Of a stretch of DNA of 46,856 nt, positions 35,357-46,856 are shown piece by piece. The position numbers and the translations under genes are program-made. The notes under the pieces were generated by a model. The model ran no database searches. It had not been told where the DNA came from and was given only the letters and a program-made list of their open reading frames with translations. The stretch is from assembly GCA_030550025.1 (NCBI GenBank), contig JAUQQC010000016.1, forward strand, positions 1 through 46,856, in the 5' to 3' direction. How positions within the stretch are numbered: position 1 is the stretch's first letter; the number at the start of each line of letters is the position of its first letter. The stretch comes from Acidobacteriota bacterium (GTDB lineage: Bacteria > Acidobacteriota > Blastocatellia > HR10).

Positions 35357-38017
35357 ATGGGGGCTCGATCTCCTGCGCGAGTACGTGTTCGTGCGCTCGT
35401 TCTTCTGTTCGCAAGTGTAGGATCACCTTGCGCAGGCTTTGCGCAGCAGCCGCGACCGATCGAACCGGCTAATCAGACGGCCTCAACGACAACAGGGGGG
35501 ACGAGCACGGGACTCTTTCTGACGCTCGGCGCGCGAACGCTTCGCCGCGGTGAGTATACCTTCAGCACGTCTTGGAGCAACTTCGATCGCGATCCGGGCG
35601 ATCTGGACATCAATCAAATCCCCGTCAGCTTCACGCTCGGACTGACGAACCGGCTAGAGCTGTTCGTGACGGCGAACGTCTTTCAGCAAGTGACGTCGCG
35701 ACAGCCCTTCGCCCTCTCGGGCTATCAGTTTCACGGCGTGCGAAAGGCTTTCGGCGGTGATCCGTTCGTCGCCTTCGGCTTGCCCGTCGGAGGACGGGAG
35801 ACGGCGGCCGCGTTCTTTCCGTTAAGCGGCGCGCGGCTTGGGGGGGTTCTGCCGCCGCCGGGCAGCTTCTTCGGTCCGGCGCTTTTAGCCGATCGGCCGA
35901 GCTTCGTCCACGAATGGCCCTTCTTTGGGCCGGCAACCTTTCTCTCGCGCGAGCTGGGTTTCGACCTGCAGCGCTCGGCCAACGGCCTGGGGGATATGAC
36001 CGTCGGCTTGAAAGCGGCGTTGACGGAACCTTCCGGCGCTTTCCCGATCGCCCTGGCCGCCTTGTTGCGGCTGCCTTCGGCGCGGCATCTGGAAGCGCTC
36101 GCGCGCGGGCGCAGCTCGGGGGCGACCGATGTCGGCGTGCTCTTGATCTCCGGCCAGAATTATCTCAACCATCGCCTTCGTCTGGTGCAGAACATCGGCT
36201 ACATCCATTCCGGAGATCCGAAGCTGAGCGGGGTGAAACTCCTGGATCGGCGCGATCAACTTCTGCTCAATGCCGGGGTGGAGATCGCGCCCGTGCAGTG
36301 GCTGGTTCTCATCGCCGAATGGGCGAATACGATCTACGTCGCGTCGGGAACGCCGAGTCTGAACGCCGTCAACCCTTCCGATTTACTCCTCGGCGCACGC
36401 CTCTATGGCTATGAGGGACGCATCCAGGTGGGAGGAGGATGGCGGCGATTCCTGAACCAATCCGACGCACGCACGATCCCCGTCTTCCAACCCGGTCTGG
36501 GCGTCTCCACGCTCGATATCAGTTCCAGGGACGTCAATGGCTTCGTCTTCAACTTCGCCCTGGCGCGTCGCGCTTCGCTCTTACCCCCTCCGCCGCCGAA
36601 TCGTGCGCCGAGCGTCACGCTCTTTGTGGATCGCGCCGAGGTGCGTGATGGCGAGCGCGTGACGTTGGAAGCGCGCGCGTTCGATCCCGATAACGATGTG
36701 CTCACCTACGTATGGGCGGTTGAGCCACCGGTCCCGCGCGAAGCCATGCAGGCCATCGGCGTGCCTCCGGGAGCACCACCAGGAAATCGCCTCGTGCTCG
36801 ATACGACGGGATTGAATCCCACGCCAGGCGCGCCACCGCGCACTTTCACCGTCACCGTGCACGTCGAGGACGGACGTGGAGGAACAGCTTCGGATCGGCG
36901 CGCGATCACGGTGACTGCGCCCACACCCCCAACTCCGCCTCCACCACCGCCACCACCGCCTCCGCCGCCGAATCGTCCTCCGGTCATCCAAGCGATCGAG
37001 GTCGCTCATGTCGGGACGCCGCAGGTGCCCGGGCAGATCACCGATGGCGATCTCCTGCGCGTTCGCGCCATAGCTCAGGACCCCGATGGCGATGTGCTCG
37101 TTTACCGCTGGAGCGCGACAGCTGGACGATGGGTGGGCATCGGCAGCGAGATCACCTTCGACACAGCGGGGATCACCACCGGGCCCGGAGGACCACCCGT
37201 TGCGGTAACGATCACCGTGACCGTGGATGACGGTCGGGGTGGGACCGAGAGTCGCTCGCACACGATCACCGTCGTCGCCGTGAAGCGGCCGGAGCCGATT
37301 CGACTGCCCGCGCTCTTCTTCGCCCGGTTGAATGCGGCGCGCATCACAAACTTGCATAAGGCTGTACTCGATGATGCGGCCGATCGGCTGCGACAGGACC
37401 CGCGCGCCACGCTCCTGATTGATGGCCATCAGGATCGAGCCGAGCGGTCGAATGTGGCGCGCACGCGGGCGCAAAATGCCGCCGACTACCTGATCCGGGA
37501 GCGCCGGATCGAACGCGCGCGGATTCGAGTCCGAAGCTTCGGCGCCGAGCGGCCTCACGAGAGCGGACGACGGCGGTTGAATCGTCGTGTGGAGTTGTGG
37601 ATTCTCCCGACCGGCGCTGAGATGCCGCCCAACGGCGCTCATGGCGAGCCTCGACGCGAGTCGAGGATGCCGCTCTTACAACCGCCCCTGGCGAATGCGC
37701 TGCGGTCCGCCCCGCTTTCGCAAGCTCTCGGACACACGGCTTCAGAACGGCCGACGAACGAAGTTCAACGTCGGCCGCTTCGAGTGACGGCGCTCGCTCC
37801 CGTCCCCGCCCGTTCCGAAACGGTGGGGTTGAGCGAGACCCCGGCTGTCCGAGCGCGCGCATCCCGAGTGGCCGTCAAACGCACAGTGGCGCAAAAGGCG
37901 GCGAACCGCACGCGCCTTCTGTCCAGGCGCCGCGCCCGTATCGAAGCGAGGCCGTCCAAGCGCGCCCTCGCCACGGCATCCCGCCATTCGTCCCCTTTGG
38001 CGCGCCGCCTCGAGTGA
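35357..38017 (+). CDS. OmpA-family outer-membrane protein with barrel, two Ig-like domains and basic tail
   Basis: 886 residues. A signal peptide ending near CAGFAQQ precedes a beta-barrel-like region (about 40-410). Two Ig/cadherin-like domains follow (about 415-525 and 545-640; VEDGRGGTASDRR and VDDGRGGTESRSH), joined by a run of prolines (about 528-540). Next is an OmpA peptidoglycan-binding domain (about 650-755) with RTRAQNAADYLIRERRI and LNRRVELW. The last 130 residues or so are disordered and strongly Arg-rich, unusual for the family. GAGGAGG precedes the ATG. It lies 69 bp after the FG-GAP gene, so both may be one surface unit. Confidence 0.82.
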   Translation: MGARSPARVRVRALVLLFASVGSPCAGFAQQPRPIEPANQTASTTTGGTSTGLFLTLGARTLRRGEYTFSTSWSNFDRDPGDLDINQIPVSFTLGLTNRLELFVTANVFQQVTSRQPFALSGYQFHGVRKAFGGDPFVAFGLPVGGRETAAAFFPLSGARLGGVLPPPGSFFGPALLADRPSFVHEWPFFGPATFLSRELGFDLQRSANGLGDMTVGLKAALTEPSGAFPIALAALLRLPSARHLEALARGRSSGATDVGVLLISGQNYLNHRLRLVQNIGYIHSGDPKLSGVKLLDRRDQLLLNAGVEIAPVQWLVLIAEWANTIYVASGTPSLNAVNPSDLLLGARLYGYEGRIQVGGGWRRFLNQSDARTIPVFQPGLGVSTLDISSRDVNGFVFNFALARRASLLPPPPPNRAPSVTLFVDRAEVRDGERVTLEARAFDPDNDVLTYVWAVEPPVPREAMQAIGVPPGAPPGNRLVLDTTGLNPTPGAPPRTFTVTVHVEDGRGGTASDRRAITVTAPTPPTPPPPPPPPPPPPNRPPVIQAIEVAHVGTPQVPGQITDGDLLRVRAIAQDPDGDVLVYRWSATAGRWVGIGSEITFDTAGITTGPGGPPVAVTITVTVDDGRGGTESRSHTITVVAVKRPEPIRLPALFFARLNAARITNLHKAVLDDAADRLRQDPRATLLIDGHQDRAERSNVARTRAQNAADYLIRERRIERARIRVRSFGAERPHESGRRRLNRRVELWILPTGAEMPPNGAHGEPRRESRMPLLQPPLANALRSAPLSQALGHTASERPTNEVQRRPLRVTALAPVPARSETVGLSETPAVRARASRVAVKRTVAQKAANRTRLLSRRRARIEARPSKRALATASRHSSPLARRLE

Positions 38018-38091
38018 CCGTTTGCCGCTCGGCGCGCCGCTTGACCGCTGGCGCGGCGGATTCGTCGGGCACAAGTTTTTATACATTTTCG

Positions 38092-38121
38092 TTGACAAAG
38101 TCGCCATACTTGGGCTATACT
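38092..38121 (+). promoter_or_regulatory. Strong promoter of the sulfur assimilation operon, with AT-rich upstream element
   Basis: A perfect TTGACA (38092-38097), 18 bases, TATACT (38116-38121). Directly upstream, 38074-38090 (GTTTTTATACATTTTCG) is a rare AT-rich tract in this GC-rich DNA, resembling an UP element. A hairpin (CGCCGC at 38035-38040, GCGGCG at 38053-38058) lies between the ompA-like stop and this promoter. Confidence 0.75.
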
Positions 38122-38152
38122 ACTGCCCGACTCGCGTCGTCGGGAGGAACAC

Positions 38153-38302
38153 ATGGTGGGATTCGAAGCCAAAAAGCCGAGGACGGCGCGGAGCACAGCG
38201 CATCCTCAGGGCCGCGTCGTGAAGGCCGATGTCCGCATCTCCCGAGGGCCTTGGGCCTCGGAGTCCGGCAGCGCCCTCGCCGATGACGTCTGTCGTCGTT
38301 GA
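38153..38302 (+). CDS. Small leader ORF upstream of the sulfite reductase gene (49 codons)
   Basis: ATG with GGGAGG five bases upstream, about 25 bases after the predicted start of transcription. The product begins MVGFEAKKPRTARSTAHPQG and ends ADDVCRR; I recognise no family. The position in the 5' leader of a cysteine-biosynthesis operon and the Cys near the C-terminus suggest a regulatory leader peptide, but there is only one Cys codon and no clear terminator after it, so a small protein or chance frame is also possible. A CCGAGG/CCTCGG hairpin (38242-38261) lies inside the frame. The gap 38303-38371 shows only AT-rich and SD-masking small stems. Confidence 0.5.
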   Translation: MVGFEAKKPRTARSTAHPQGRVVKADVRISRGPWASESGSALADDVCRR

Positions 38303-38371
38303 ACGCTCACGGTCGTAGTTTTCTCCCCGCGAGAAATGCGCACTCCCGTCGGAGGGGGCGAGCTCATCATT

Positions 38372-40075
38372 ATGGGCGACGTTCCATCGAAGGAGACAAA
38401 AAAGGAAACGAAGGCCGCGCGGATCGAGCGACTGAAGGCGGAGAAGAATCCGTGGGAGCACTTGGAAGAGGTCCTTCGGTTCGCCGAACAGGGGCATGAG
38501 GCGATCCCGCGCGAATGGTTGGAGACCTACTTCCGATGGTGGGGGGTCTATACGCAAGGCGATGGGCGTGGCGTCTTCGGCCACGCGATGCCGTATTTCA
38601 TGGTGCGCATTCGGATTCCGAACGGTCTGCTCGTCTCGCCTCAGCTGCGCGCGATCGCGGAGTTGGCCGAGCGATATGCGCGGGGCTTCGCGGATATCAC
38701 CGTGCGGCAGAACATCCAGTTGCATTGGGTGCGGATCGAAGACATGCCCGATATTCTCCTTCGCCTCTTTCGCGTGGGGCTGACGACAATGGGGGCTTGC
38801 GGTGATGACACGCGCAACATCACGGGCTGTCCGCTCGCCGGGATTGACCGCGATGAGATCTGCGACGCTTCGCCTCTGGTCCTGCAAGCGACGCGCATGC
38901 TCGTGGGGAACGAGGCCTTTTACAATCTGCCGCGCAAGTTCAAGATTTGCATCACGGGTTGCCGCGTCTGGTGCTCGTACCCGGAGATCAACGACGTCGG
39001 GCTGACGGCTGTCGAACGCGTGACGGTGGGCGGGGAACGCGAGATTGGATTTTCGGTGCGCGTGGGCGGGGGGCTTTCGACCACCCCTCATTTTGGTATC
39101 CGCTTGAATGCCTTCGTTCGGTGGTCGCAGGTCTTGTCGGTCGTGCGGGGGATTGCCGAGATCTTTCGCGACAGCGACGTCTTGCGGCAAGATCGGGCAA
39201 AGGCTCGGTTGAAATTCCTCTTCCTCGAGCATGGGTGGACGGCCGAGCGGTTCCAAGAGGAGTTGGAACGGCGCCTTGGCTTTCGGCTCGATCCGGCCGT
39301 GGAGGAAGAGCTACCGGATCACGTCTATCGCGATCACGTGGGCCTTCATCCGCAAAAGCAGCCGGGGTATTACTATGCGGGTTTCGCGATCCTGCGGGGG
39401 CGGATCACGGCCGAGCAGATGCGTCGCGCAGCCGATTTGGCCGATCGGTATGGCGACGGGCAATTGCGGACGACGAATATGCAGAATCTCGTCCTCCTTA
39501 ACCTCCCGGAGGAGCGATTGGGCGCTTTCCTCCGAGAGGTCGAGAAGACGGATCTTCGATTGGAGGCTTCGCCGTTCTGGCGCGGTGCGATCGCCTGCAC
39601 GGGGACGGAGTTCTGCAAATTGGCGATCGCCGAGACGAAGTCATTCGCGCGATGGCTCGTGGAGGAATTGGAGCGACGGCTGCCGGGATTCGCCGAGCCG
39701 CTCAAGATCAACGTCAACGGGTGCCCGAACTCTTGCGGACAACATTGGATCGCCGACATCGGGCTCCAAGGGTGCAAGATGAAGGTCGGTGGGGAACAGG
39801 TGGACGCTTTCGACATCCTCTTGGGGGGAACCGTCGGTCGAGGTGCAACGTTCACGCGCCGTATCGGGCTCAAGGCCCCGGCGTCGGCGGTTCCGGACGT
39901 GCTCGAACGCTTGCTGCGCGAATACTTGGTTCGCCGTCGGCCGGGCGAACGCTTTCACGAATTTTGTTGGCGCCACAGCGAGGCTGAACTGCGTGCGATG
40001 CTCGTGGGGGGAGAGGTGGAGGCCATGGCCGCTCCTCCGTGGCCGGGGCCACCTCCGCATGGCGTGGAGGGATGA
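38372..40075 (+). CDS. Siroheme sulfite/nitrite reductase (ferredoxin-type), first copy
   Basis: 567 residues with the two-fold ferredoxin-like and NiR/SiR domain repeat. The siroheme-[4Fe-4S] cysteines are Cys409 and Cys415 (CTGTEFC) and Cys451 and Cys455 (GCPNSC); the ITVRQNIQLHWV strand (109-120) is the usual parasulfite-domain motif. It reduces sulfite to sulfide or nitrite to ammonia by six electrons. The APS reductase in the same operon argues for sulfite (inference). Two starts are possible: ATG 38372 (GGAGGGGG 13 bases upstream) and ATG 38336 (weaker site). The stop is followed within two bases by a 42-codon Cys-rich ORF. Confidence 0.92.
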   Translation: MGDVPSKETKKETKAARIERLKAEKNPWEHLEEVLRFAEQGHEAIPREWLETYFRWWGVYTQGDGRGVFGHAMPYFMVRIRIPNGLLVSPQLRAIAELAERYARGFADITVRQNIQLHWVRIEDMPDILLRLFRVGLTTMGACGDDTRNITGCPLAGIDRDEICDASPLVLQATRMLVGNEAFYNLPRKFKICITGCRVWCSYPEINDVGLTAVERVTVGGEREIGFSVRVGGGLSTTPHFGIRLNAFVRWSQVLSVVRGIAEIFRDSDVLRQDRAKARLKFLFLEHGWTAERFQEELERRLGFRLDPAVEEELPDHVYRDHVGLHPQKQPGYYYAGFAILRGRITAEQMRRAADLADRYGDGQLRTTNMQNLVLLNLPEERLGAFLREVEKTDLRLEASPFWRGAIACTGTEFCKLAIAETKSFARWLVEELERRLPGFAEPLKINVNGCPNSCGQHWIADIGLQGCKMKVGGEQVDAFDILLGGTVGRGATFTRRIGLKAPASAVPDVLERLLREYLVRRRPGERFHEFCWRHSEAELRAMLVGGEVEAMAAPPWPGPPPHGVEG

Positions 40076-40076
40076 T

Positions 40077-40205
40077 ATGACCGAACGTCCGCTCATTTCG
40101 TTCAACGGGCCCGCGAGCGTCAAGGGCGAGAGGGGATCGTGTCCCAGCATGTGTATGTGTCCCGGCGCGCCGGTAGCGGGCCCTCGCGGAGGTGACGGGA
40201 TGTGA
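40077..40205 (+). CDS. 42-codon Cys/Met-rich small ORF, probable attenuator leader peptide
   Basis: ATG with GGAGGG five bases upstream, two bases after the reductase stop. The peptide begins MTERPLISFNGPASVKGERG and continues SCPSMCMCPGAPV. Cys codons (all TGT) at 40140, 40152 and 40158 and Met codons at 40149 and 40155 place five sulfur-amino-acid codons within seven. The stop TGA (40203-40205) lies 24 bases before a strong terminator hairpin. Read as a leader peptide, it would make ribosomes stall when Cys-tRNA (or Met-tRNA) is short. Alternatively, CxxxCxC could be a metal- or sulfur-binding site of a real small protein. Confidence 0.72.
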   Translation: MTERPLISFNGPASVKGERGSCPSMCMCPGAPVAGPRGGDGM

Positions 40206-40267
40206 AGGCGAGGCGAACGATCGGAGCGAGGCCCGCTCTCGGGATTCCCGGAGCGGGCCGTTTCGTT
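40107..40267 (+). promoter_or_regulatory. Candidate cysteine-responsive transcription attenuator
   Basis: Four complementary segments. A = 40107-40114 (GGGCCCGC). B = 40175-40187 (AGCGGGCCCTCGC). C = 40226-40243 (GCGAGGCCCGCT then CTCGGG). D = 40247-40259 (CCCGGAGCGGGCC). A pairs with B over 8 bp, enclosing the Cys codons. B pairs with C over 12 bp with one bulged C (antiterminator). C pairs with D over 13 bp with one bulged T (terminator). B and D share AGCGGGCC, so they compete for C. A ribosome stalled on the Cys codons separates A from B and leaves B free to pair with C; one reaching the stop sits between B and C, so C-D forms. Confidence 0.62.
40230..40267 (+). terminator. Intrinsic terminator between the two reductase genes
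   Basis: Stem GGCCCGCTC/GAGCGGGCC extended by CGGG/CCCG with one bulged T and an ATT loop, followed by GTTTCGTT. The hairpin is very stable; the T-run is short. It ends 13 bases before the second reductase ATG and is the C-D arm of the proposed attenuator. Confidence 0.75.
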
Positions 40268-40280
40268 ATGGAGGGGGGAT

Positions 40281-42053
40281 ATGGAAGACGGACGGCAGCT
40301 CGAGGAGCTCCTCGTGGGATTGCCCGTAGAGGTGCAAGCGGAGATCCGCCGATTCGTTGAGGAGATCGAAGCGCTGGAGGCCGGGCGGCGCGATCCGGAG
40401 GATTTCAAGCGCTTTCGATTGGAGAACGGAGTCTATGGCATTCGCGGGGCTCCGGATCTGCACATGGTGCGGGTGAAAGTGCGGTTCGGTCGGATCACGC
40501 CGGAGCAATTGGAGGCGTTAGCTGACATCGCCGATCGGTTCACACCGGATCGGCGGGTTCATCTCACGACGCGACAGGACATCCAGTTTCATCGAGTGCG
40601 ACGTCAGGATGTACCCATCGTGCTCGCGCACATCGCGCGCGCGGGACTGACGACGCGCGAAGCCTGCGGCAACACGGTGCGCAATGTCACGGCCTGTCCG
40701 CTGGCGGGCATCTCGCCGACGGAGGTCTTCGATGTGACGCCCTATGCCGATGCCGTCTCGCGCTACTTCTTGCGGAATCCGATCGCGCAGAATCTCCCGC
40801 GAAAGTTCAAGATCGCCTTCGAGGGGTGTCGCGAGGATCACGCGCGTGTGAGGATTCACGACATCGGCGCTGTCGCCGTCGTGCGCGAGAGGCAGCGCGG
40901 ATTTCGGCTCTATATCGCCGGGGGATTGGGCGCCCAGCCACGCGCGGCCGAGCGGCTTGAGGATTTCACGCCGGCCGATCTCTTGGTCCCCACCTGTGAG
41001 GCTGTCCTCCGCATCTTCGATCGGTATGGGGAGCGCCGGCCCGAGCACACGTTTCGCATGCGGGCGCGGATGAAGTTTCTGGCGCGGCAGTGGGGGATCG
41101 AGCGACTCCGCGCTGCCATTCTCGCTGAGCGACGTGTGCTTTTGGCGACACGCTCGGGCTTGGTGAGGTATGAGATTGAAGAGGAAGAGGAGGAGCCGCC
41201 AGATGTCGAGCTCCCGAAGGGAACGCCCGCGCTTTGGACGCCCACGCCGGCATATGAGCGATGGCGGCGACGGAACGTCATGGCGCAAAAGCAAGCGGGG
41301 TATGTGGCCGTCCTCGTTCGGTGCGCCTTGGGCGATCTGACGAGCGACGCATTGCGCGCTCTGGCGCGTCTCGCTCGTCGGTTCTGCGGCGGGCGCGTGC
41401 GCACGACGATCACGCAGAACGTGCTCTTGCGTTGGGTTCCGGACGCTGCTTTGCCGTGGGTCTACGAAGAGCTTGTGGCGGCTGGACTCGCCGACGCGCA
41501 GGTGGTGGCGGATGTCACGCGCTGTCCCGGCGCCGACACGTGCCAATTGGCGCTCACGCACTCGCGCGGTTTGGCCGAAGCCGTTCGCCGCGTGCTCATC
41601 CGTGATGGGTTTGAGGAGCTCTCCGAGCTTGGCGATCTCACGATCAAGATCTCCGGTTGCATGAACTCGTGCGGGCACCATCACATCGCCGACATCGGCT
41701 TCTACGGTGCTTCGAGCGAGGTCGCCGGGCGCGCTCTTCCTCAATACGTCTTGCTCATTGGGGGGTACACGGAGGTCGAGCACGTGCGGTTCGGGCGCGC
41801 CATCGCTCGCATTCCGGCGCAGTGGGCACCGGAGGCTCTCGCGCGCGTGCTCGCGCTCTATCGCGGTGAGCGTCGAGGGGGCGAATCGTTTCGAGAATTC
41901 GTCGCGCGCGTCGGCCCAGATCGTTTTCGGGAGGCGCTCGCGCCGCTTCAGCAAACGCCGACGTTTGAAGATGCACCGGAGCTCTATCGCGATCTCGGGG
42001 CCGAAGGCGATCTCTTCCGCGCGGAGATGGGGCCCGGGGAGTGCGCGGCGTGA
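40281..42053 (+). CDS. Siroheme sulfite/nitrite reductase, second paralogue
   Basis: 590 residues, distant from the first copy. Siroheme-[4Fe-4S] cysteines are Cys415 and Cys421 (RCPGADTC) and Cys460 and Cys464 (GCMNSC, then GHHHIADIGF); HLTTRQDIQFHRV (94-106) and RTTITQNVLLRWV (374-386) are the paired active-site strands. An acidic linker (EIEEEEEEPPDVE) separates the halves. The length and C-terminal HSRG segment resemble the nitrite/sulfite reductase family used for assimilation. GGAGGGGGG lies just upstream of the ATG, right after the terminator. It starts the sub-operon with cobA, the precorrin-2 dehydrogenase gene and cysH. Confidence 0.92.
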   Translation: MEDGRQLEELLVGLPVEVQAEIRRFVEEIEALEAGRRDPEDFKRFRLENGVYGIRGAPDLHMVRVKVRFGRITPEQLEALADIADRFTPDRRVHLTTRQDIQFHRVRRQDVPIVLAHIARAGLTTREACGNTVRNVTACPLAGISPTEVFDVTPYADAVSRYFLRNPIAQNLPRKFKIAFEGCREDHARVRIHDIGAVAVVRERQRGFRLYIAGGLGAQPRAAERLEDFTPADLLVPTCEAVLRIFDRYGERRPEHTFRMRARMKFLARQWGIERLRAAILAERRVLLATRSGLVRYEIEEEEEEPPDVELPKGTPALWTPTPAYERWRRRNVMAQKQAGYVAVLVRCALGDLTSDALRALARLARRFCGGRVRTTITQNVLLRWVPDAALPWVYEELVAAGLADAQVVADVTRCPGADTCQLALTHSRGLAEAVRRVLIRDGFEELSELGDLTIKISGCMNSCGHHHIADIGFYGASSEVAGRALPQYVLLIGGYTEVEHVRFGRAIARIPAQWAPEALARVLALYRGERRGGESFREFVARVGPDRFREALAPLQQTPTFEDAPELYRDLGAEGDLFRAEMGPGECAA

Positions 42054-42075
42054 GGATTTCCATGGGAGGGAACGT

Positions 42076-42861
42076 ATGAGCGGAGAGCCTCGTCTCGGGA
42101 AGGTCTATTTGGTGGGAGCGGGTCCGGGAGATCCGGGGCTACTGACGGTGCGCGGCGCGGAGGTGCTGAGCCTCTGCGATGTGGTGGTCTACGATGCGTT
42201 GGTGAATACGGCGGTGCTGAACTACGCGCCGGCCGAAGCCGAACGCATCTTCGTTGGAGAGGCGCGTGCGGCGCATCGTCTGACGCACGAGGAGATCCTC
42301 CGCCTGCTGATTGATCGAGCACGACGTGGCTTTCGGGTCGTGCGCCTGAAAGGGGGTGATCCGTTCATCTTCGGGCGAGGGGGAGAGGAGGCGATGGCGC
42401 TTCGAGCGGCCGGCATCCCGTTTGAGGTCGTGCCGGGGGTCTCGGCCGGACATGCGGCAGCCGCGTACGCGGGGATCCCGCTCACGCATCGTGGCCTCGC
42501 TTCGAGCGTGGCGTTTGTGACCGGACACGAATGCGCGGAGTCGCCACGACCGGTGCAATGGGAAGCGGTAGCGCGCGCTGTGGACACGCTCGTGGTCTTC
42601 ATGGGGGCGAGTCGGTTGCCGCAGATCGTCGAGCGGCTGCTTCGTGCGGGGCTCGCTCCGGAGACGCCGATCGCCATCATCGAGCGTGGGACGTATTCGG
42701 ATCAACGCGTGCGCGTGGCCGCGCTGGGGACGATCCTCGCGCACGTGGCGGAGGAGCCCGTTCGTTCTCCCGCCTTGATCGTCGTGGGAGACGTCGTGGC
42801 GCTACGGGAACCATTGGCTTGGTTTGAAGAGAGGGACGTCTTCGCGTCAGCTCGGTTGTAG
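42076..42861 (+). CDS. cobA: Uroporphyrinogen-III C-methyltransferase
   Basis: 261 residues. Family motifs are LVGAGPGDPGLLTVRG near the N-terminus, the VVRLKGGDPFIFGRGGEE substrate loop, and PGVSAGHAAAAYAGIPLTHR. It uses two S-adenosylmethionine to make precorrin-2, the first step to siroheme. The ATG at 42076 follows GGGAGGG by five bases. Its product feeds the next enzyme, and siroheme is needed by both reductases. Separate from the dehydrogenase/ferrochelatase, unlike fused CysG. Confidence 0.96.
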   Translation: MSGEPRLGKVYLVGAGPGDPGLLTVRGAEVLSLCDVVVYDALVNTAVLNYAPAEAERIFVGEARAAHRLTHEEILRLLIDRARRGFRVVRLKGGDPFIFGRGGEEAMALRAAGIPFEVVPGVSAGHAAAAYAGIPLTHRGLASSVAFVTGHECAESPRPVQWEAVARAVDTLVVFMGASRLPQIVERLLRAGLAPETPIAIIERGTYSDQRVRVAALGTILAHVAEEPVRSPALIVVGDVVALREPLAWFEERDVFASARL

Positions 42862-42874
42862 GAGGGAAGAGCGC

Positions 42875-43567
42875 ATGACGTACTATCCCGTCTTCCTCGA
42901 TCTGCGGGATCGCGAGGTTGTGGTCGTCGGCGGGGGAACCGTCGCCGAGCGAAAGGTGCGCGCGCTGCTTGAGGCTGGTGCCCGCGTGCGCGTGGTCAGT
43001 CGGACGTTCGTGCCCTCGCTCAAAGCGCTGGCCGAATGCGGGCGGATCGCCTTCCGTGTGGGAGAGTTCGAGGAAGCCGATCTCGAAGGAGCATGGTTGA
43101 TCATCAGCGCGACCGACGATGCCGAGGTGAATCGGCGAGTCGCGGAGGCGGCCGCTCGCCATCGGCGCTTCTGTAACGTTGCGGATGCGCCCGCATTCTG
43201 CTCCTTCCTCGCTCCCGCCGTCATCCGACGCGGAGCGGTGGCGATCGCCATTTCGACGGGCGGGCAGAGTCCGGCTCTGGCCGTTCATCTCAAGCAGAAG
43301 ATCGCCGCGATCATCGGTCCGGAGTATGGGGCGTTGGCGGAGCTGCTCAGCCATATGCGCCCGCTCGTGCAGGAGCGCATCCCCGATCCGAAATGGCGGG
43401 CGGAAGTATTTCACCGCCTCGTCGAGTCGGAGGTGTTCGATTTGCTGCGCGCCGGAGAACGGAGCGCCGCCGAAGCACACGCCCGCGCTCTCATTGAGCG
43501 CTGGGCCAGCGAAAGCTCTTGGTCGGAAGACCTGCGGGACATCGCTTCGGGAGGTGATGCCTTATGA
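42875..43567 (+). CDS. Precorrin-2 dehydrogenase / sirohydrochlorin ferrochelatase-type protein
   Basis: 230 residues resembling the N-terminal half of CysG (also Met8/SirC). An NAD-binding Rossmann motif VVVVGGGTVAERKVRALLEA (15-34) is followed by FCNVADAPAFCSFLAPAVIR and the dimerisation part AISTGGQSPALAVHLKQKI. It oxidises precorrin-2 to sirohydrochlorin and may insert iron; whether it chelates cannot be judged from sequence. GGAGGG precedes the ATG at 42875, 13 bases after cobA. The stop overlaps the cysH start. Confidence 0.93.
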   Translation: MTYYPVFLDLRDREVVVVGGGTVAERKVRALLEAGARVRVVSRTFVPSLKALAECGRIAFRVGEFEEADLEGAWLIISATDDAEVNRRVAEAAARHRRFCNVADAPAFCSFLAPAVIRRGAVAIAISTGGQSPALAVHLKQKIAAIIGPEYGALAELLSHMRPLVQERIPDPKWRAEVFHRLVESEVFDLLRAGERSAAEAHARALIERWASESSWSEDLRDIASGGDAL

Positions 43568-44397
43568 GTGAGCTGCTCGTTCATCGGGAGGTCGAATCCT
43601 CGTCGTCTGCGGCCATTCGGGAGTCGCACGCGTTATCTTTGGAAGACATTCGCCGCCTCAATGAGGCGTTCGCCGAGAAGCCGGCCGAGGCGCTTTTGGA
43701 ATGGGCGCTCGAACGCTTTCATCCGCGCATCGCCCTAGCCTCGAGTTTCGGAGCTGAAGATGTCGTGCTTGTGGACATGCTCTGGCGCCTTCGGCCGGAC
43801 GCACGCGTCTTCACGCTCGATACCTGGCGCTTACCCACGGAGACCTACGACGTCATTGATCGAATTCGCGAGCGTTATGGAATCGAGGTGGAGATCCACA
43901 CGCCGGATCCGACAGACGTCGCCGAGATGGTGCGCGCGCACGGGTACAACCTGATGTATCGTTCGGTCGAGCTGCGGAAGCTTTGTTGCCACGTCCGGAA
44001 AGTGAAGCCGCTCGAGCGAGCGCTCGCAGGGTTGGATGCGTGGATCACGGGGTTGCGTCGAGAGCAGGCCGTGACGCGCGTGCAGGTCGCCAAGATCGAA
44101 CGAGATGTCCTCCATGGCGGTCGCCTCAAGCTCAATCCGCTGGCGGATTGGTCGTGGGAGCAGGTATGGGCGTACATTCGTCGGCACGACGTGCCATACA
44201 ATGTGCTCCACGATCGCGGGTATCCTTCGATCGGGTGCGCGCCGTGCACGCGCGCCGTTCAACCGGGCGAAGATCCGCGCGCCGGACGCTGGTGGTGGGA
44301 GCGGAATCCTGCCCTTCAGGAGTGCGGATTGCACGTCTCCTATGACCCCGGGAGCATCGGAGTCGTGCTTCCCTCGAGCGCAGAGTCGAATTCGTGA
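43564..44397 (+). CDS. cysH: Adenylyl-sulfate (APS) reductase, assimilatory
   Basis: 277 residues. The PP-loop-like nucleotide site is SSFGAEDVVLVD. The [4Fe-4S] cysteines of the APS-using type are all present: Cys141-Cys142 (KLCCHVRKV) and Cys225/Cys228 (CAPC). The catalytic Cys254 is in QECGLH. It reduces APS to sulfite with thioredoxin; the cluster makes APS rather than PAPS the expected substrate. The start overlaps the upstream stop (ATGA). No ATP sulfurylase or sulfate transporter gene is in the window. Confidence 0.96.
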   Translation: MSELLVHREVESSSSAAIRESHALSLEDIRRLNEAFAEKPAEALLEWALERFHPRIALASSFGAEDVVLVDMLWRLRPDARVFTLDTWRLPTETYDVIDRIRERYGIEVEIHTPDPTDVAEMVRAHGYNLMYRSVELRKLCCHVRKVKPLERALAGLDAWITGLRREQAVTRVQVAKIERDVLHGGRLKLNPLADWSWEQVWAYIRRHDVPYNVLHDRGYPSIGCAPCTRAVQPGEDPRAGRWWWERNPALQECGLHVSYDPGSIGVVLPSSAESNS

Positions 44398-44494
44398 AGC
44401 GGAACGAGGAAACGGCGCCTGCGCGATCCGTGAGGCGTATCGGCCGGTGAGGAGTCATTCGCAGGGGCCCAGGACATGACGTCAGGGGGTGAGG

Positions 44495-45313
44495 ATGCCT
44501 ATCGAGCTTTGGATGGTGGCGTTTTTGGTGGGGCTCATCGCGCAATTCGTGGACGTGCTGACAGGGATGGGGTTTGGCGTCATCTCGAGCAGCCTCATGC
44601 TGGCCGTCGGACTTCCACCTGTTCTGGTCGTCGCGACGGTGAATCTGGTGAAGGTCGGGAACGGCCTCATGGCGGGACTCGCCCATTGGGGTTTCGGCAA
44701 TGTGCGCCGAGATTGGGTGATCCCACTCTCCATCTCTGGCGTGGTCGGCGCGTTCGCTGGGGCAACGCTTGTCGGCCGATTGCCCGAAGGCGCTGTTCGC
44801 CTCTGGGTCTCGGCGGCGCTGCTTGGGCTTGGCGGGATGCTCCTCTTTCGCTTCTTCTTCCTCACGCGAGAGGAGCCGTTAACCCACGGATTCTTCTCCC
44901 GGCTTGATCCGGGATCCAATGCTTCGAGCGAGCGCGTGGAGCAGGGAAATTCCCTCTCGCTTGTCGGCATCGGATTTGTGGCCGGCTGCTTCAATGCAAT
45001 GAGCGGAGCGTATGGGCCAGTGATGACCACGCTCTTGATGCTCACGCGAGGGGAGCATCCTCGCTACGCCATTGGGACCGTGAGTCTCGCCGAGCTGTTC
45101 GTCGCCGGCGCGAGCACGATCGGGCTACTCCGTACGCTCGAGTCCTCCGATTTCCCACTCTGGCTCCCAATTGCCGTGATGATCGGCGGGATCGCCGCGG
45201 CTCCATGTGGGGCGTATCTCTGCCGCCATCTTCCCAGACGAGCGCTGGAAGGCATCATCGGCGTGGCCATCGTGAGCTTGAACCTGTGGAACGTACTGCG
45301 CGCATTCGGATGA
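44495..45313 (+). CDS. TauE/SafE-family sulfite (or sulfur anion) exporter
   Basis: 272 residues with about eight membrane segments in two repeats: LIAQFVDVLTGMGFGVISSS and FVAGCFNAMSGAYGPVMTTL are the paired signature regions. The family exports sulfite, sulfoacetate or related anions, or imports sulfate-like substrates. Its place after a sulfite-making operon suggests protection from excess sulfite (inference). The ATG at 44495 has AGGGGG five bases upstream; a GTG at 44489 touches that site. The 97-bp gap after cysH has no clear promoter or terminator. Converges on the next gene with seven bases between. Confidence 0.85.
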   Translation: MPIELWMVAFLVGLIAQFVDVLTGMGFGVISSSLMLAVGLPPVLVVATVNLVKVGNGLMAGLAHWGFGNVRRDWVIPLSISGVVGAFAGATLVGRLPEGAVRLWVSAALLGLGGMLLFRFFFLTREEPLTHGFFSRLDPGSNASSERVEQGNSLSLVGIGFVAGCFNAMSGAYGPVMTTLLMLTRGEHPRYAIGTVSLAELFVAGASTIGLLRTLESSDFPLWLPIAVMIGGIAAAPCGAYLCRHLPRRALEGIIGVAIVSLNLWNVLRAFG

Positions 45314-45320
45314 GGTCAGC

Positions 45321-46856
45321 TCATCCGGATCGTCTCTCGGCGAGCTTGGCCTTCTTCTCCTTCAGGAGTTCGAGATGGCGACGGGCGTAGGCGATCTGGG
45401 CGATCAAACGCAGCGGGGGATTCTCTAAGCTCGGGAGGAGTGTGAACGTGCGCGCCGGATCAGCGGAGGTGAACGCTATGACGACGCGTTCGAGCATGAG
45501 CATGATGTCCTGTTCAGCGACGCCGATGACCAAGCCCACGTCCTTGAAATTGAATTGGAAATTGGCGCCCGGCCTCTCGGCCACGGCCTCTGGCTGATTA
45601 AGCGGGCCGATGGCTTGAGCGAACAGTTCGAATGCGCGATCCGCATCCAGTGGGAGCAGGGCTTCCGCGATCAAGATGAGCGCGCGCGCCTTCTCAATGG
45701 ACACTGGCAAGCGCCGGATTCGGGCCTCGGCTTCTTGAAGGAGGGCGAGCGCGGCATCCTCCTCCTCTCGTTCCTTGAGCTTTCGGGCGAGCCGGTTGAA
45801 CACATGGGCGAGTCGCTCCGGGTTGTTCAACTCCCCTGCGCTTCGGCGGGCAGTCTCCAAGTCCCCTTTCTCCAGCGCATGCTCGGCCCACCGATAATGG
45901 ACGAAATCCGAGGCCTCCGCGCGTTGCTTCAAATCGCTGAGGCGGGGGACGAGGTCCGCCGCAGTCTCGAATTTGTTGGCGAAAACAGCTTCGGAGATCG
46001 CTTGGAAGAGATACGCGTCTCGCTCCTCCGCATCTTTCGTGCGCTCCGCCTGTCGAAGAAGATCGGCGATCCTCTCTTCCGGGCCGAACGCCCGTTTCGC
46101 CTCCGCGGCCTCGACTTCGGCTTGCGCCCGAGCGGGGAGTTTGATCGCGAGTTGGTTCAGGAGCCCATCAACCAGTGCCGCGCGATCAGGAAGATACTGT
46201 TGGACCCGCGGTCGGATGACGGTGAGGATTTGATAGAGGGCGCGCGGGTTCGTGATGTCCGTTTGAGGGAATCCGGGCGCCAACATCGGGTTCAGCGCGA
46301 TCTCGACGTACTGCGCGAGGGCTTCAAGAAGCACATGCAGATACTGCGCGGCAATGGTTGGATTCACCGGTGGCGGCTCCGATTTGGCGATGAAGCGCAT
46401 GGGGAGCTGCCAGTCCTGGGCGACGTAAGAACCAAGCGGGATCAGCTCGTAGAGAGAGGGCGGGGTGTTCCGAGCGGTCACTCCAAGAGCATGCGTGAAG
46501 AGCTGATCGGCCAACGCGGAATCTTTCGAGCGAAGGTCCATGAGGAATCGAACGAGGACGAAAGGGTCTGCAACTCCTTCGCTCAAGGCGGCCGTGACGG
46601 CTTCGGCGGCGCTCTTCGGGTCTTTTTCCAGCAGAAGATGAGCCAGGTGCATGAGCGCTCGCGTGCGCTCTGAGCCAGCGGGGCGTGGCATACGGTGAGC
46701 CTCTTGGCGCTCCTCGTGTTTGGGCTCTTCTGCCTCGCTCTTTTTGATCTCCAGGCTCTTGGCCAACTCCATTGCCAAGGGGGGGTCGAGCTTGCTCACT
46801 TTGGCGAGGAGTTCCCGGCGTAGTCCATCCGGATCGCGCATGCTGCCAATCCAGGC
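45321..46856 (-). CDS. Helical-repeat protein of unknown function, N-terminus beyond the right edge
   Basis: At least 511 residues, all predicted helical and TPR-like, with many Ala/Leu/Glu-rich repeats (for example SIEKARALILIAEALLPLDA and ADPARTFTLLPSLENPPLRL). The first ATG in the window is at 46841, but the frame stays open to the edge (AWIGSM before it) and no ribosome binding site precedes that ATG, so the true start lies outside. No catalytic motif is seen. Large exported helical proteins of this type are frequent in Acidobacteriota (recollection, not checked). Confidence 0.7.
   Translation of the reverse strand, partial: AWIGSMRDPDGLRRELLAKVSKLDPPLAMELAKSLEIKKSEAEEPKHEERQEAHRMPRPAGSERTRALMHLAHLLLEKDPKSAAEAVTAALSEGVADPFVLVRFLMDLRSKDSALADQLFTHALGVTARNTPPSLYELIPLGSYVAQDWQLPMRFIAKSEPPPVNPTIAAQYLHVLLEALAQYVEIALNPMLAPGFPQTDITNPRALYQILTVIRPRVQQYLPDRAALVDGLLNQLAIKLPARAQAEVEAAEAKRAFGPEERIADLLRQAERTKDAEERDAYLFQAISEAVFANKFETAADLVPRLSDLKQRAEASDFVHYRWAEHALEKGDLETARRSAGELNNPERLAHVFNRLARKLKEREEEDAALALLQEAEARIRRLPVSIEKARALILIAEALLPLDADRAFELFAQAIGPLNQPEAVAERPGANFQFNFKDVGLVIGVAEQDIMLMLERVVIAFTSADPARTFTLLPSLENPPLRLIAQIAYARRHLELLKEKKAKLAERRSG

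Follow-up and report, generated by a model that had tools for sequence, protein, structure and literature searches.

Comparison of related genomes indicates that the interval between two reductase genes of a sulfur operon encodes a ribosome-mediated attenuator of transcription with Cys-tRNA(Cys) as its signal, an interpretation to which we assign a probability of roughly 0.88. At the level of sequence, this comparison shows the cysteine codons, the competition between two alternative RNA pairings (B-C and C-D, below), their spacing, and the association with sulfur genes, and it thereby supports the trp/his-type attenuator logic proposed in an initial sequence-only reading. The window (the whole stretch analysed, 46,856 nucleotides) is one contig from a genome of 3.17 Mb, and its closest named relative is “Bacterium HR10” (class Blastocatellia); “Acidobacteria bacterium J050” and a “Blastocatellia bacterium” are among the named members of the order.

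The operon comprises, in order, a promoter-like site, SiR1, the leader, SiR2, cobA, sirC, and cysH, followed by a gene for a TauE-type exporter. Its main features are as follows.

38092 to 38121, + strand: promoter-like TTGACA-18-TATACT (11 of 12 consensus positions), the likely operon promoter, upstream of SiR1
38336 to 40075, + strand: SiR1, first NirA/SiR-type nitrite/sulfite reductase; its stop codon TGA (40073-40075) lies 1 nt upstream of the leader ATG
40281 to 42053, + strand: SiR2, second NirA/SiR-type reductase, predicted to be the first controlled gene; absent in G003
42070 to 42861, + strand: uroporphyrinogen-III C-methyltransferase, cobA/cysG C-terminal type; exact start uncertain
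42875 to 43567, + strand: precorrin-2 dehydrogenase/siroheme synthase N-terminal type (sirC); start set at MTYYPVF
43564 to 44397, + strand: thioredoxin-dependent adenosine phosphosulfate (APS) reductase (cysH); TIGR02055 above cut-off

The promoter-like site is kept in HR10 and in G003, a further genome of the same genus, and a scan of positions 38000 to 46000 found no further one. SiR1 and SiR2 are NirA/SiR-type ferredoxin-dependent enzymes, and both score under the NCBIfam equivalog cut-offs. The pair of reductases in the sequence-only reading is therefore present, but both were named there as sulfite reductases, a role that we infer from operon context; the siroheme enzymes and APS reductase placed downstream of the element were identified as cobA, sirC, and cysH. 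Between the conserved promoter and SiR1 lies a 49-codon ORF (38153-38302, + strand) with a good ribosome-binding site. HR10 and G003 retain its end, LADD(V/I)CRR followed by the stop, which overlaps with a small hairpin (CGACGAC-GTCT-GTCGTCG) that is not accompanied by a terminator; the ORF may encode a further leader peptide of a different kind.

The element itself comprises the following features.

40066 to 40071, + strand: GGAGGG, the ribosome-binding site of the leader, 5 nt from its ATG
40077 to 40205, + strand: leader peptide ORF of 42 codons, MTERPLISFNGPASVKGERGSCPSMCMCPGAPVAGPRGGDGM followed by the stop, with counterparts in G003 and HR10
40107 to 40114, + strand: segment A, GGGCCCGC, an 8-bp complement of B and its possible partner in a protector stem
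40140 to 40160, + strand: putative control codons TGT-CCC-AGC-ATG-TGT-ATG-TGT, with Cys at codons 22, 26, and 28
40170 to 40186, + strand: segment B, CCGGTAGCGGGCCCTCG, predicted antiterminator 5' arm within the leader ORF, assigned by complementarity to C
40228 to 40243, + strand: segment C, GAGGCCCGCTCTCGGG, shared arm for B (antiterminator) or D (terminator)
40247 to 40259, + strand: segment D, CCCGGAGCGGGCC, terminator 3' arm (13 bp)
40260 to 40267, + strand: GUUUCGUU, U-rich stretch following the terminator; HR10 and G003 have TTTTC

The 42-codon ORF, its good ribosome-binding site, and the cluster of TGT (40140, 40152, and 40158) and ATG (40149 and 40155) codons are thus all in the sequence as first reported, as are segments B, C, and D, with B and D competing for C; B extends slightly further upstream than had been proposed. 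The leader has three Cys codons only, and these are non-consecutive, which counts against the attenuator reading.

The C-D hairpin has a predicted energy of −28.1 kcal/mol, which none of 200 shuffles equalled (z = −4.5), and it alone is the most significant structure of the window. It is missed by a contiguous-stem terminator scan because of a 1-nt bulge. Its U tract is interrupted (GTTTCGTT, directly after D), and relatives have better tails. The B-C fold (−34.4) was equalled or bettered by 8 of 200 shuffles (z = −1.7). Because the region is GC rich, this match is only nominally significant in the window alone (p about 0.04), and relatives are therefore needed to decide. Folding of the whole 211-nt interval was no better than shuffles, as expected for mutually exclusive structures. 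The proposed A-B pairing fared less well: the 8-bp complement exists, but its fold in the window was no better than shuffles (z = −0.6), the permutation p value for A-B pairing across elements was 0.03, and comparative support is weak, also for the A-like partners of B that can be proposed for G003 and HR10. Between segment A and the first Cys codon lie ∼25 nt, more than in textbook attenuators.

Within the genus, the homologous intervals, in which loss of the Cys codons or of the paired segments would have counted against the sequence-only reading, keep the leader, Cys codons, B, C, and D between SiR1 and the next gene in both HR10 and G003. The HR10 leader ends in CSCPRMCMCRGAPVAGLRGR; the G003 leader, MTGHLRIAFAGLAGAKGGMCSCPGMGMCPGAPVAGPRDDRKM, has Gly in place of one Cys of the MCMC and shares the C-terminal APVAGPR with the window. 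SiR2 is missing in G003, where the leader runs straight into cobA; retention of the attenuator thus follows its place in the operon rather than linkage to SiR2. The G003 locus (L123; contig C57, reverse strand), with SiR1 and cobA and no SiR2, may represent either a natural deletion or a pre-insertion state.

Approximately 40 related elements were found before sulfite reductase, siroheme, or APS reductase genes in Acidobacteriota (record titles of the relatives are those of public MAGs), and 36 non-redundant leader-terminator elements precede homologues of SiR1, SiR2, SirC, CobA, or CysH. In J050, G008, and G005, of the same order and family, an element stands at the head of the SiR2 operon, and G008 and G009 have another at the head of SiR1. 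Other Blastocatellia carry it before large SiR proteins (leaders MCCCCPAK, CLCPCCC, GCCCMC, and others), before cobA (CICC), or before cysH (CCCCC), and among Acidobacteria at large it precedes siroheme synthase genes (CMCSCCCC, CACCC, and others). The internal placement first described therefore holds for the window, HR10, and G003, but in most relatives the element heads the operon. Geometry is consistent: in nearly all elements B precedes the leader stop, which is 20 to 32 nt upstream of C in 32 of 36, and in 15 of 16 elements B starts 3 to 18 nt past the last Cys codon. A Cys leader and terminator before a siroheme synthase gene in a record labelled Chloroflexi (L086:3435-3530) reflects either a wider spread or a mislabelled MAG. 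No Rfam family (riboswitch, T-box, SAM, and others) matched the window in a covariance-model scan; the same scan of 19 related loci matched only an unrelated SAM riboswitch in a Terriglobia MAG (L104:6881-6996), ∼3.3 kb downstream of a Cys-leader/siroheme element. The viral contigs searched contained no relatives.

Several statistical comparisons bear on what these leaders read. A Cys-cluster ORF (at least 4 Cys codons in 6) lies just upstream of 23 of 76 terminators at sulfur-gene loci of related bacteria; these loci were collected via SiR2, and enrichment of sulfur genes is therefore partly by design, which amino acid and background controls address. With the identical cluster rule applied to every amino acid, the same 76 terminators gave 7 clusters for Leu, 6 each for Arg and Ala, and 4 for Ser; His, Trp, Phe, Tyr, Lys, Thr, and Met, among others, gave none. 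No Cys-cluster case occurred in 344 kb of background stretches of the same genome, in a scan that demands an unbulged stem and so catches canonical elements but would miss that of the window.

The Cys codons are retained while peptide and RNA sequences turn over, in agreement with the earlier expectation that codons, rather than the peptide, would be conserved. The TGT:TGC ratio is 109:37 in leader clusters and 45:128 in the genes under their control (odds ratio, 8.4; p = 3e-18), which indicates selection on the codons and not on the residues. Preference for the less-used codon is understandable in a putative codon sensor but not in a peptide that binds metal. The region after the Cys codons (B) pairs with its own C better than with the C of other elements (z = −8.4; n = 36, some of them related), and the region before the Cys codons has no such specificity (p = 0.06; n = 36). 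In sequence-unrelated subsets, built to allow for relatedness (10 to 12 elements with no common 7-mer in C and no common 10-mer in the B region), the specificity persisted (z about −4.3; p at most 5e-4 in 20 of 20 draws), and the complementarity has therefore been kept despite sequence turnover.

A second copy is present in the same genome. A textbook Cys attenuator precedes the cysteine synthase gene cysK (L187:1199-1380; contig C18), with a leader that contains MAMCCCRR and ends in MAMCCCRRTWDGSPAVAFVS and the stop, segment A (CCGCCGG) immediately ahead of the Cys codons, segment B CTCCGGCGGTGG, and a terminator, ACCCACTGCCGGA-GAGA-TCCGGCAGTGGGTTTTTTT, with a 17-bp stem and U7. Only at cysK is the protector stem clear by inspection (ACCGCCGG/CCGGCGGT). 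The element was found in all five genomes of the genus (this genome and G001 to G004; the G002 row is left out of alignment A2), including two without a detected SiR gene. Outside the genus no cysK leader was found, save a doubtful one in G006. Elsewhere in the window's genome, the ATP sulfurylase gene and another cysK-like gene (C20) have no comparable leader, and a search for a SATase_N-type serine acetyltransferase found none. Given the cysK copy, cysteine attenuation thus constitutes a small regulon in this organism.

The predicted mechanism is as follows. Transcription would start at the promoter at 38092-38121 and proceed through SiR1, and a ribosome finishing SiR1, or a fresh one recruited at GGAGGG, would begin the leader at 40077. 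With charged Cys-tRNA plentiful, the ribosome would translate through B and end at 40203-40205; its position on B or within the B-C loop would block B-C pairing, allowing C-D to form and transcription to stop near 40260-40267. With Cys-tRNA scarce, the TGT codons (40140-40160) would stall the ribosome before it reaches B, and the free B would pair with C, preventing formation of the terminator and permitting transcription of SiR2, cobA, sirC, and cysH. A ribosome covers ∼30 nt, and from this footprint we infer that one at the Cys codons would leave B free, while one on B or at the stop would cover B or the B-C loop and not C. Hand-over of ribosomes from SiR1 may contribute to loading of the leader, and any role for A-B pairing would presumably be in untranslated RNA.

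Three other explanations may be considered. Sensing of methionine, or of the two sulfur amino acids together, in place of cysteine only is very unlikely. In several clades Met and Cys codons alternate, Met accounts for 11 of the 52 non-Cys residues within clusters, and a similar-looking Streptomyces lividans leader, ARCMCRRMCAF, has been filed as metL before metNIQ (PMC8079986). Nevertheless, many leaders (e.g., CCCC and CICC) lack Met in the cluster, the controlled genes make sulfide and cysteine, and Cys codons alone are universal, so that cysteine is the supported signal; of the sulfur amino acid codons first proposed, those for Cys are general and those for Met frequent but not universal. 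The Met codons in some clades hint at joint sulfur amino acid sensing there. Less likely still is a fixed, partial intra-operon terminator that merely lowers downstream expression, next to an incidental short ORF. The significance of C-D alone in the window and the imperfect U tract would fit such a terminator, but not the recurrence in dozens of relatives of a Cys-rich ORF, TGT bias, B-C complementarity, and stop-to-C spacing.

The least likely of the three is that the nascent peptide is the sensor, either of a metal via CxxxCxC or as an arrest motif. The window peptide contains CPSMCMC, its C terminus is common to the G003 leader, and copper-sensing uORFs with Cys motifs exist: CruR is, like the leader here, a Cys-containing upstream ORF controlling transcription, but it acts through peptide-level metal sensing and Rho and has conserved peptide motifs (PMC9426467), which are absent here. 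Peptide context and Cys spacing vary freely among relatives (CCCC, CICC, CMCSCCCC, and CLCPCCC), codon choice is biased to TGT, and the genes downstream are sulfur genes. The shared APVAGP, moreover, is encoded by segment B, itself constrained as RNA. Attenuation by ribosome stalling at Cys codons remains our preferred interpretation.

As in the trp, his, and leu attenuators of enterobacteria, control codons lie in a short ORF, antiterminator and terminator are mutually exclusive, and the leader stop just precedes the terminator. The element here differs in its cysteine codons, its occurrence in Acidobacteriota, its position inside an operon 1 nt past an upstream stop codon, and its weakly supported A-B stem. 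The pheM leader in rplT-pheM-pheST of Escherichia coli is likewise an attenuator between genes of a larger operon, but with Phe codons and tRNA synthetase genes, unlike the element of the window.

The uORFC-8-2 motif, a predicted Cys-codon attenuator with an intrinsic terminator before cysS in Rhodobacterales, is restricted to Alphaproteobacteria, has two tandem Cys codons, and is not linked to sulfate assimilation (PMC8632094), whereas the element in the window has SiR, cobA, sirC, and cysH downstream. In mycobacteria and other actinobacteria, polycysteine leader ORFs have Cys-codon runs before cys genes and no terminator hairpins (PMC1262725), and actinobacterial cys leaders are cysteine responsive and described as translational attenuation (Canestrari 2020, as cited in PMC13236596). 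In that system the Cys run is near the stop, in contrast to the window, where a terminator is present and the last Cys codon lies ∼42 nt before the stop. In a 2010 survey, nearly all attenuators predicted in Acidobacteria lacked an associated function (PMC2965389); a survey of attenuators by Lopatovskaya (2010) is cited in PMC4833913. A literature search on Acidobacteria and on cysK or sulfur leaders, which lay mostly outside subscription papers, found nothing closer. The novelty claimed for an internal, terminator-type Cys leader thus appears to hold for Acidobacteriota, but a terminator-type leader had already been predicted for cysS in Rhodobacterales. A Cys attenuation regulon in Acidobacteriota has apparently not been described so far, and its internal placement is apparently unusual.

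These results give a whole family of attenuators in an abundant and mostly uncultured phylum a predicted function, namely control of sulfate assimilation and cysteine synthesis through Cys-tRNA sensing. The rules are simple (a TGT cluster, B, a stop 20 to 32 nt before C, and a terminator), and more members should be findable by scanning. We see about even odds that Acidobacteriota possess a phylum-wide Cys-tRNA attenuation regulon covering sulfite reductases, siroheme synthesis, APS reductase, and cysteine synthase, and that in this genus the internal copy divides the operon so that the first reductase is ungated and the rest is gated by cysteine, the sensor being loaded by ribosomes that have just left the upstream gene. 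The internal copy would provide a natural test of an attenuator whose ribosomes come from an upstream gene.
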